NCBI GenBank assembly: GCA_013416795.1
Contig: RQSC01000005.1
Coordinates: 290,636 to 343,368 of the forward strand
DNA length: 52,733 nucleotides
Direction: 5' to 3'
Origin: Prasinococcaceae sp. CCMP 1430
Lineage: Eukaryota > Prasinodermophyta > Palmophyllophyceae > Prasinococcales > Prasinococcaceae
Below, one piece after another: positions 34,928-38,459 of this stretch. Every line of letters starts with the position of its first letter. Position 1 is the first letter of the stretch. Made by a program: the position numbers and the translations under genes. The notes below the pieces were generated by a model. That model searched no databases. It saw only the letters and a program-made list of their open reading frames with translations, and was not told where the DNA came from.

Positions 34928-35387
34928 GGCGCCTGGCGCGCGGCAGCACGCCAGGCGCGCGGGTTATGGCATGCCCTCAGGGGCCCGCCACTCCTGTCAG
35001 CTTCGAGACCAACCGCCGCCGGCGCCCCCCTCCCCTCCCCTCCCCCTCCCCCCCCTGTGCGCGCGCGCGCACCCTAGCCCCCGATCACCAGCCGCCGCGT
35101 GCGCCCCCGTGCCGCGCACGCGCGAATTCATATCCGTCTTTCCCATACCTCGCATATCTCATTAATATGACATATATTTTTACCCACGGGCGACTTCATT
35201 CACGGATGTGGGCAGGCCCGCGCCCACACGCGGTTCCGACGATGGCCGGCGGCAAAAAAAAAAAAAATAGGTACGAAAGCTCGAACGCCACACTGCCAGC
35301 GGAAAAGGAGGAGACGCGAAAGGAAAAAAAAAGGGGGCCTCGAGCCATCACAATCGATGCGGGGGGGGCGGGCTCCGCGGCGGCAGC
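34928..35387. promoter_or_regulatory. Divergent spacer between eIF3k and Pat1
   Basis: 460 bases. It includes an AT-rich patch at 35120-35185 (TTAATATGACATATATTTTTAC), an A14 run at 35254-35267 and an A9-G5 run near 35327. A short plus-strand frame from 35242 (MAGGKKKKNRYESS) has no homology that I can see. The space is too small to encode the usual long Pat1 N-terminus. Confidence 0.5.
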
Positions 35388-36524
35388 ATGATGGCCGCGC
35401 ATGAGGTCGAACAGATCGCGCGCATCCAGTACGCGGCCACGCACCAGCGCGGCGCGTATCACGAGGACTACTACGCGCTCGCGCTGGCGTCCAAGAGCGG
35501 CGGCCAGCGGCCGGGGCTGTTCGCGCCGGCGGTGCTGCGCGACACGCAGGCGGAGGGCGCCAACGGCGCGGCCGAGAGCGGCCTGAGCCAGCGCGGCGCG
35601 GCCGTGTCCTACGTGGCGCTGGACGGCCTCGGCAAGATCGCGTACTCGTCGATCACCAAGCCGAAACCCATGCTGGAGATCCCGCCGCGCGAGGGTGAGG
35701 GCATCAGCGTGGACGCCGAGGATGTGGGCGGCGATGAGGACGAGGTGCGCCCGCTTGAGCAGGAGCCGATGCTCGCGGCGAGGCAGCTCATCGAGGACGG
35801 GCACAATCTGCTGCTCGACATCGACGACATCACCCGCATCCTCGAGACCCCGCCGGCGCCAGCGGACGGCGGCGCAATGCTGCGCGGGCGCCGCGACAAG
35901 ATGCTGGACATGCTCATCGCGAGTATGCGGCTGCCGCCCCCGGGCGCGTCGCTCGCCGAGCATCTGCCCCCCGCGTCGACGCCCGCCGACCGCGTGCTGG
36001 CGCGTGTGGGCGCGGTGCACAAGGGCCGCTCGCTGCTGGTGGGTGCGCTCAAGCGCTTCCCACCCACCGCCACCGCCGCCTGCTCGCTCACCGTGGCCGC
36101 CTGCCGCAACCTCGGCCCGCTGCTGGGCTCGCGCCGTGGCAAGTGCCCGGCTGCCACGCAGCTGGCCCTGGCGTGCGCGTCGTGCGTGACATCCATGGGC
36201 GTGTCGGACAGGCCCATGCTGGTGGCGTGCCTCGCGGCCATGAATCCGCGTGGGCTGTGGGCCAAGGAGAGCGCGGGAGGCGACAGTGCCCCCCCTCCAC
36301 CCGGCGAGGTGCTCATGCTGGCGCTGCTGGCGTGCGGCACCAACGTCACGGGCGACGCCGCGAGCGCGCCTGCGTGGTTGGGCGCCATGGAGAGATTCGT
36401 GGCGGCGCTCGCGCAGCTGCCGGCGCCGGGCGCCCCGAAGCGCGTGTTCGAGGCAGCGCTTATCTCGGCGGAGGGCACCGCGGCAGAGGCCCTCAAGGCG
36501 CTCGCCGCGCGCGCCACATGGTGA
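35388..36524 (+). CDS. PAT1: Pat1 C-terminal domain protein (mRNA decay scaffold), short form
   Basis: Pat1 bridges deadenylated mRNA, the LSM1-7 ring and decapping factors in P-bodies. The frame encodes 378 residues from ATG-ATG at 35388. It starts at the region that in plant Pat1 follows the long disordered N-terminus (AHEVEQIARIQYAATH, then YHEDYYALAL). It continues with VSYVALDGLGKIAYSSITKPKPMLEIP and an alpha-helical C-terminal repeat domain with GAVHKGRSLLVGALKRFP. The DDX6-binding N-terminus and Pro-rich segment are not encoded nearby. A CAG at 35384-35386 just before the first ATG could be a splice acceptor, so an unseen upstream exon remains possible. A TGTAA lies 62 bases after the stop. 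Confidence 0.78.
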   Translation: MMAAHEVEQIARIQYAATHQRGAYHEDYYALALASKSGGQRPGLFAPAVLRDTQAEGANGAAESGLSQRGAAVSYVALDGLGKIAYSSITKPKPMLEIPPREGEGISVDAEDVGGDEDEVRPLEQEPMLAARQLIEDGHNLLLDIDDITRILETPPAPADGGAMLRGRRDKMLDMLIASMRLPPPGASLAEHLPPASTPADRVLARVGAVHKGRSLLVGALKRFPPTATAACSLTVAACRNLGPLLGSRRGKCPAATQLALACASCVTSMGVSDRPMLVACLAAMNPRGLWAKESAGGDSAPPPPGEVLMLALLACGTNVTGDAASAPAWLGAMERFVAALAQLPAPGAPKRVFEAALISAEGTAAEALKALAARATW

Positions 36525-36585
36525 AGAGGCCAGCGGAGGCGAGCGTGGCCGAGGAGCCACCGCAGCGTTCGGTTTCGTAACACCT

Positions 36586-36590
36586 TGTAA
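36586..36590 (+). terminator. UGUAA poly(A) signal candidate of Pat1
   Basis: TGTAA 62 bases after the Pat1 stop codon, in the 130-base convergent spacer before the transaldolase-like gene. It matches the green-algal polyadenylation signal. Confidence 0.5.
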
Positions 36591-36654
36591 CAAGACGCAA
36601 AACGTCACACCATTCTCACAACGCGAGTAGTCGAATGCGCGCGCGAATTTACTC

Positions 36655-38013
36655 CTACCCCTCATCGCTGTCGGTGGGCGTCTCGACCATGATCTCCGCG
36701 ACGAGCTCCTCCAGGTGGCGTTCCTCGACGGCGAATCCGTGCACACTCTTCTCGAGGAGTTCCACGGCGCACGCGTCGGCGTCGTGCAGCCGGACGAAGC
36801 GGCCGAAAGACAGCGGGCGGGCGGCCACCTCCTCGCGTGGCCACAGCGTGCGCGCGTAGTTGTCTGAGAGCTTGAGCATGAGCGGGTCCGAGCAGGCGCG
36901 CAGCTCCTCCATGATCAGCGGCGGAATTATGAGGCTGTCGCAGCCCGCCAGTTCGCGCACCTCGTGGATGTTGCGAAAAGACGTCGGCGTCACCATGGAG
37001 GGGACGCCCTCCTGGTGGTAGAGCGTGTAGAGGCGCTTGGTCCTGAGCACACCTGGGTCCTCGTGTGCGGGGTAGTGATCGCGAGCGTGCTCGGCCCTGT
37101 GCCAGTCGAGCGTGCGTCCGACGAATGGCGTCACGCGGCTCGCGCCTGCGTCGGCGCATGCGATGCCCTGCGCGAGAGAGCACACGAGCGTCATGTTGCA
37201 CTGAACACCCTCCTTCTCGAGCGCCTCGCACGCCTGGATACCCTCCCAGGTCGCGGGCATCCGCACGCACAGCTTGGACGCGGCGTCCACGCCACGGCGT
37301 TCAAGAGCGTCCGCGAGCCCCATCGCCGCGTTGATTAACTCGTGCGTATCGAAGCTCAGCATCGGGTCCAGCGGCACAAGTACGCGGCCGTCGGCGGGCA
37401 GCACCGCCGCGAGGTCCTCTGCGAGGTCGAGCGTGAGCGCAGCAGCGATGGCCGCAGGCGACGCGCCAGCCTTGGAGGCGGAGCGCACCGCCTGGACCAG
37501 GCGCGTACGCAGCTCGCCCTCGTCATCGCCCTCAAGCACGTCCTTGAGGTGCAAGGCGCCCTCACCGAGCTGGTGAGCGATGTCGTTGTGCTTGAGGCGC
37601 AGCTCGGGCATGGCCGCGGCGCAAAACTCCGCCAGTACGAGCGCGGGGTGTGCGCACGCGTCGCGCACCAGCCGTCCGCCATCTGGCGCTGCGAGTTCCT
37701 TCACGAGCGCCACATCGGCGGTGTTCGCGACGAGGCGCGAAGTGGTCGCCAGCGCCTGCAGCTGGTTGCTCGCGCCCGGGAGCGCCACACACGGCGGAGA
37801 CGGCTCGAACGGATCGCACGCGTCCACGCGAGACGTTGCGGGCTCGGACGGCAGCGCCGGCTCAGAGCCCGCCGCGGCTGCGATGTGGCCGCGCGCACGC
37901 GGGCGGCGCCCCCCCGGCGGATCGCCACGCGGGTGGTGCTTCCTCGGAGCTGGCACCGCCGTCGCTGCCGCCGCCGCCCGCGAATGAGTTAGGAGGAACG
38001 CCGCGTGCGCCAT
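36655..38013 (-). CDS. Transaldolase-fold protein lacking the catalytic residues (probable pseudoenzyme)
   Basis: Single exon of 452 residues from ATG 38013 with a plastid-transit-like start (MAHAAFLLTHSRAAAAAT, then Arg/Pro-rich). The rest follows transaldolase closely: MPATWEGIQACEALEKEGVQ, CNMTLVCSLAQGIACADAG, TPFVGRTLDWH, PTSFRNIHEVRELAGCD. Compared with E. coli TalB, the Schiff-base Lys132 is Arg251 (VRMPATWEG), acid/base Asp17 is Asn97 (VANTAD), Glu96 is Pro214 (LVPLDPMLSFDT), and Asn35 is His122 (DACAHPALVL). The phosphate-binding Ser/Arg of SFRN and the Arg of FVGR are kept. This pattern means the usual dihydroxyacetone transfer is very unlikely; a sugar-phosphate-binding or scaffold role is inference. 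The alignment is from memory of TalB. The gene is divergent from the GT14 gene. Confidence 0.85.
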   Translation of the reverse strand: MAHAAFLLTHSRAAAAATAVPAPRKHHPRGDPPGGRRPRARGHIAAAAGSEPALPSEPATSRVDACDPFEPSPPCVALPGASNQLQALATTSRLVANTADVALVKELAAPDGGRLVRDACAHPALVLAEFCAAAMPELRLKHNDIAHQLGEGALHLKDVLEGDDEGELRTRLVQAVRSASKAGASPAAIAAALTLDLAEDLAAVLPADGRVLVPLDPMLSFDTHELINAAMGLADALERRGVDAASKLCVRMPATWEGIQACEALEKEGVQCNMTLVCSLAQGIACADAGASRVTPFVGRTLDWHRAEHARDHYPAHEDPGVLRTKRLYTLYHQEGVPSMVTPTSFRNIHEVRELAGCDSLIIPPLIMEELRACSDPLMLKLSDNYARTLWPREEVAARPLSFGRFVRLHDADACAVELLEKSVHGFAVEERHLEELVAEIMVETPTDSDEG

Positions 38014-38459
38014 TCCCGGCTGCGCAGCAATGTCGCGCGCACGAATATAATCTCCAACAAGCGGCGCCCCCGCGCGTCCCGCCGATAGCGGCTGCGGCAC
38101 CGCTTTGCCTGCGCCCCGCCCCCCCTCCCCTCCTCGCCGGCGCGCGCCCTTAGAAAGCAGGGAGTTGCCGAACGCGTGCCGCGTGCGCCGCGCCTCGTTG
38201 CGCGCCCGCCGCCGCACAGCGCGCGCGCGGTGCGGCCGGCGGCGGCGGCAGTGGTGGCCTCTGGGCGCGGGGCGCCTCGCCCTCGGCGGCGAGCCGGCGT
38301 GCGCTCTTACTGCCGTCGCAACAGCAGCAGCCGCAGCCACAGCTACCGCTGCAGCAGCGGCAGCGGCAAGAACGAGAGGAATCTATTTCCGATCGACACC
38401 GCCAGCTTGGGCAACGACGGGATGAGCGGGATGAAGGCCGAGGGCAGCAACAGCCGGCG
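38014..38459. promoter_or_regulatory. Divergent spacer between the transaldolase-like and GT14 genes
   Basis: 446 bases, GC-rich, with (GCAGCC/CAG)n-like sequence at 38320-38370. The GT14 frame is open upstream of its ATG and reads as Gln/Arg-rich sequence here, and an Ala-rich hydrophobic stretch occurs in another frame, so part of the GT14 N-terminus may lie here. Confidence 0.45.

Follow-up and report, generated by a model that had tools for sequence, protein, structure and literature searches.

What does a gene encode when it preserves the frame and the fold of a transaldolase and none of the four catalytic residues of that family? The locus that raises this question lies in a stretch of 52,733 nucleotides (hereafter the window) from the green alga Prasinococcaceae sp. 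CCMP 1430. Kinases and some metabolic families are well known to include pseudoenzymes; a literature search for an inactive transaldolase or a transaldolase pseudoenzyme found nothing relevant.

Gene Structure and Subfamily

The gene is an intact nuclear paralogue of the TalAB type of transaldolase (Table 1). Its reading frame runs from ATG to TAG through 452 codons with no internal stop (452 amino acids plus TAG), in agreement with the earlier note, which had called the frame intact. Of 5000 shuffles that preserved the composition of the stretch, not one was free of stops, and GC content at the three codon positions (0.75/0.50/0.85) is coding-like and resembles that of the neighbouring frames, so a chance frame is unlikely. 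The TAL_FSA family (PF00923) matches residues 172-435 (E 2.8e-47, 161.9 bits against a cut-off of 27), and among proteins of solved structure the sequence is closest to Escherichia coli transaldolase B (TalB; E 3e-47).

The composition and charge of the N-terminal extension suggest organelle targeting by a putative transit peptide. The insert that follows strand 2 was considered as an unspliced intron; its codon-position GC (0.83/0.29/0.88), which looks strongly coding, speaks against this. Confidence in the structural model is low there.

The best-scoring profile is TalAB (TIGR00874) at 207.5 bits, which does not reach the equivalog cut-off of 396 bits. With 304 bits the alga's canonical transaldolase misses it too, so this cut-off is not decisive for a eukaryote. 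A plastid transaldolase would be expected to score higher with the TAL-type profile than with TalAB. The order here is the reverse (29 bits with the mycobacterial-type TAL model, TIGR00876, vs 207 with TIGR00874), and the label "plastid-type", given to the protein previously, is not supported. The TAL subfamily is found in land plants and bacteria (PMC4407918); its plant members (cd00955; PMC4407918), among them Arabidopsis GSM2, share a superfamily with the algal protein, as judged by comparison through profiles.

Table 1. Location of features of the transaldolase-like gene (window positions) and of related genes (contig positions)
Feature	Location	Strand	Evidence or remarks
CDS, transaldolase-like (putative pseudoenzyme), single open frame	36655..38013	-	Translation, PF00923, codon-position GC
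N-terminal extension, residues 1-62	37828..38013	-	Ala/Pro/Arg-rich, net charge +6, predicted disordered
Insert of ~30 residues (about 139-169) after strand 2	37507..37599	-	Absent from aligned bacterial transaldolases
Asn97 (AAC) at TalB Asp17, end of strand 1	37723..37725	-	Alignment, codon, model
His122 (CAC) at TalB Asn35, just past strand 2	37648..37650	-	Alignment, codon, model
Pro214 (CCG) at TalB Glu96, end of strand 3	37372..37374	-	Alignment, codon, model
Arg251 (CGG) at Schiff-base Lys132, strand 4	37261..37263	-	Alignment, codon, model
Arg300 at TalB Arg181 (phosphate contact), kept	37114..37116	-	Alignment
Ser345-Phe-Arg347 at TalB Ser226-Phe-Arg228 (phosphate contacts), kept	36973..36981	-	Alignment
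Canonical transaldolase (L001)	G000:C101:179857-180807		D, N, E, K and the 9 further pocket residues examined all present
Copy of the gene (L003, L056, L057)	G000:C101:267435-270305		2871 bases, 100% identical to window 35360-38230
Divergent Lys-to-Arg homologue (L004, 1444-2877)	G000:C72:764976-765611	-	PF00923 only 48 bits

Active-Site Residues

The protein was aligned with TalB and 15 bacterial TalB-like proteins (MAFFT L-INS-i). The four equivalences that had been proposed in the earlier note proved exact: where TalAB-type enzymes have the Schiff-base lysine on strand 4 (Lys132), the algal protein has Arg251, and where they have Asp17, Asn35 and Glu96 it has Asn97, His122 and Pro214. All 16 bacterial sequences, TalB included, and the canonical transaldolase of the alga carry D, N, E and K at these sites. 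It would take two or more base changes to turn the Arg251 codon into one for Lys, or the Pro214 codon into one for Glu, so a sequencing error at these two sites is unlikely. Nor does another lysine occupy the Schiff-base position: the protein has ten lysines, and the alignment puts all of them outside the barrel pocket. That the protein is still active as a transaldolase, through some other lysine or with its site arranged differently, is extremely improbable; overall similarity to the family (PF00923) is good, but by alignment no lysine falls in the pocket and the equivalents of Asp17 and Glu96 are gone as well.

The rest of the pocket is partly retained. Asn154, Thr156, Phe178, Arg181, Ser226 and Arg228 (TalB numbering) are all present, and the earlier claim that the phosphate-contacting Arg and Ser positions remain stands for Arg181, Ser226 and Arg228 and fails for Ser176, which is Thr295 here. 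Further changes are Thr33 to Cys120 and Ser94 to Leu212, the latter within a segment (TalB residues 94-97) that reads LVPL in place of STEV. With the pocket remodelled beyond the four catalytic sites (T33C, S94L, S176T), it is not certain that the usual sugars still bind.

Some of the new side chains could be read as the makings of a different active site. His122 and Cys120 on strand 2, together with Cys249, which lies on strand 4 two residues ahead of Arg251, are new at pocket-side positions, and the protein might be a repurposed enzyme with a new, non-Schiff-base chemistry that works through Arg251, His122 and Cys120. We regard this as quite unlikely: Pro214 and Leu212 remove polar groups from the pocket, and to our knowledge no enzyme of the transaldolase family works without the lysine.

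Selectivity of the Loss

How far the catalytic residues were singled out was assessed over the 111 positions that are invariant in 16 bacterial transaldolases. The algal protein keeps none of the four catalytic positions, six of the nine other pocket positions and 60 of the remaining 98, whereas the canonical copy keeps 4/4, 9/9 and 72/98. Retention at catalytic positions (0/4) is lower than at other invariant positions (66/107; one-sided p about 0.025); when the comparison used a broader set of 13 active-site residues and an invariant set that differed slightly, the excess loss was not significant (p 0.16). The excess is modest, and the "coordinated loss" proposed in the earlier note is weakly supported. 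The protein is therefore generally divergent, with its catalytic positions hardest hit.

Divergence of this kind, with 45 of the 111 bacterial-invariant positions lost, is also what a young relic might display, a gene that recently lost its function and has yet to accumulate stops; that no orthologues were seen in the prokaryotic, viral, phage, plasmid and E. coli collections searched fits such a history too. The end branches of the protein and of the canonical copy, however, are similar in length (2.9 vs 3.0; 3.2 vs 3.6 without the trait columns), which speaks against recent or simple decay and gives no sign of faster decay. The 452 codons without disablement, the lack of any stop-free shuffle and the coding-like codon composition likewise count against a relic, and the two-base changes at Arg251 and Pro214, together with the remodelled third strand, suggest that the replacements are old. 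We consider a relic decidedly improbable.

Predicted Fold

An AlphaFold2 model was built from an 11-row alignment. Its mean pLDDT is 78, with most of the core above 90; residues 1-68 fall under 50 and are predicted to be disordered. The model is a TIM barrel that superposes on human transaldolase (1f05) with a Z score of 42.8 and an rmsd of 1.9 Å over 317 residues, and on the E. coli TalB structure with a Z of about 41.5, so that the transaldolase fold, which had been proposed from motifs, does appear to be retained. Strand 1 ends at residue 96, strand 2 at 120, strand 3 at 214 and strand 4 at 253, which places the four replaced residues at the catalytic end of the predicted barrel.

Overall, the protein resembles E. 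coli TalB and human TALDO1 (TalAB; cd00957, TIGR00874) in its barrel, in about 33% sequence identity and in the equivalents of the six retained pocket residues listed above. It differs from them in lacking the Schiff-base Lys, Asp17, Glu96 and Asn35, in its N-terminal extension and the insert after strand 2, and in scoring below the TIGR00874 cut-off.

Transaldolases and Other Genes of the Genome

PF00923 has matches at four places in the genome (24.5 Mb in 145 contigs, GC near 70%): the gene described here, a copy of it, a canonical transaldolase and a divergent homologue. The canonical enzyme, encoded on contig C101, is like our protein in being TalAB-like, in belonging to the same barrel family and in falling below the TIGR00874 equivalog cut-off; the two are about 33% identical, and the catalytic D, N, E and K are present in the one and replaced in the other. 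Transaldolase activity is thus covered elsewhere in the genome.

The presence of a canonical partner also bears on the possibility that the protein is a structural or hetero-oligomer partner of the canonical transaldolase, or of some other enzyme, with no need to bind a ligand. The fold is kept across the whole catalytic domain of the model, and the insert could be a docking surface. Set against this are the low identity between the two proteins and the replacement of TalB Arg300 by His425 and of Gly298 by Ser423, although position 300 varies in bacteria too. A purely structural partner seems to us unlikely.

The second copy of the gene, also on C101, adjoins a run of 8935 N. Given this run and the 100% identity over 2871 bases, it was discounted as independent support for the gene; it is likely best read as an assembly duplicate, or else as a very recent duplication.

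The divergent homologue on C72 also has Arg at the Schiff-base position (FRMPATY, with RMPAT replacing IK[LI]AST) and no equivalent of Glu96. It is only about 24% identical to our protein and, unlike it, has lost the equivalents of Arg181, Phe178 and Trp185. The two may or may not go back to a single loss event: they group together with support of 91/93, which drops to 63/87 without the trait columns, the branches are long, and the alternatives to this grouping are not rejected (p-AU 0.32 and 0.15).

Light-harvesting genes were noted in passing. The chlorophyll a/b-binding proteins of the genome are of the green type. One such gene lies at 598-2385 of the window (minus strand); Pfam matches it in two pieces apart from each other (C89:292370-292816 and 291829-291972), and an intron probably splits the gene. 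Another protein (L007, G000:C68:264357-264869) finds its closest counterpart among solved structures in the LHCI set of 9vfj, at 315 bits, well above the other green LHC proteins, which reach at most 188 bits. A fusion of phytochrome and cryptochrome, known as the Pycnococcus type, was not seen in the genome, the matches to the two photoreceptors being on different contigs.

Searches for Relatives

No closer relative was found in those of the prokaryotic, viral, phage, plasmid and E. coli collections that were searched. A scan of genome contigs for the residue pattern yielded only one ordinary transaldolase from the Myxococcales; among 140 genomes of the same phylum the pattern was absent, and there were 16 clear TalB-like matches, of which the aligned ones keep the lysine. 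It was absent from viral contigs as well, where only ordinary transaldolases were found. These last (L041-L055, from IMG/VR) are TalB-type proteins, and every one that was read has the catalytic lysine; most lie close to a contig end or at it, and they are possibly host flanks of prophages. One bacterial TalB-like protein on a long branch (L026, G121:C8:32930-33553) keeps the Lys and Glu96 but has a partly altered active site, with Glu for Asp17, Ser for Asn35, His for Asn154 and Ser for Phe178.

Function

A pseudoenzyme may be recognized by an intact gene whose product keeps the fold and has lost the catalytic residues, and this is the combination found here. With the lysine, the two acids and the key asparagine all gone, transaldolase activity is very unlikely, and we conclude from the sequence that the protein is, with high probability, a catalytically inactive transaldolase pseudoenzyme. 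The earlier reading of it as a transaldolase homologue that does not form a Schiff base is upheld by the retained fold, frame and phosphate-end residues and by the separate canonical copy.

Whether such a protein could still hold a sugar phosphate is a separate matter. Entry 3te9 describes a K135M mutant of Francisella transaldolase crystallised in complex, so loss of the lysine need not abolish binding. Taken with the retained phosphate-end residues, this mutant makes non-covalent binding of a sugar phosphate by the algal protein plausible. The ligand in the mutant complex is presumably fructose 6-phosphate. A role in binding sugar phosphates or in regulating a partner is what we tentatively favour, at slightly short of an even chance.

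The explanation that best accounts for the whole, to which we would give even chances, is as follows. By its sequence the protein has lost Schiff-base catalysis, with Arg for Lys, Asn for Asp, Pro for Glu and His for Asn; with its predicted TIM barrel and phosphate-end residues retained, it would most likely bind a sugar phosphate non-covalently. Its part in the pentose-phosphate or Calvin network would be that of a sensor, a sequestering protein or a regulatory partner, and the transaldolase chemistry would fall to the canonical copy encoded on C101. A broader proposal, speculative and unlikely as it stands, is that the transaldolase pseudoenzymes of early-branching green algae form a small family, of which one genome has at least two members with Arg in place of the Lys, and that this family senses sugar phosphates through the retained phosphate site and tunes the pentose-phosphate or Calvin network.

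A natural transaldolase without the lysine, both acids and the key asparagine, in a species that also has an apparently working copy, would provide a natural test of whether a sugar-phosphate barrel can serve as a sensor.
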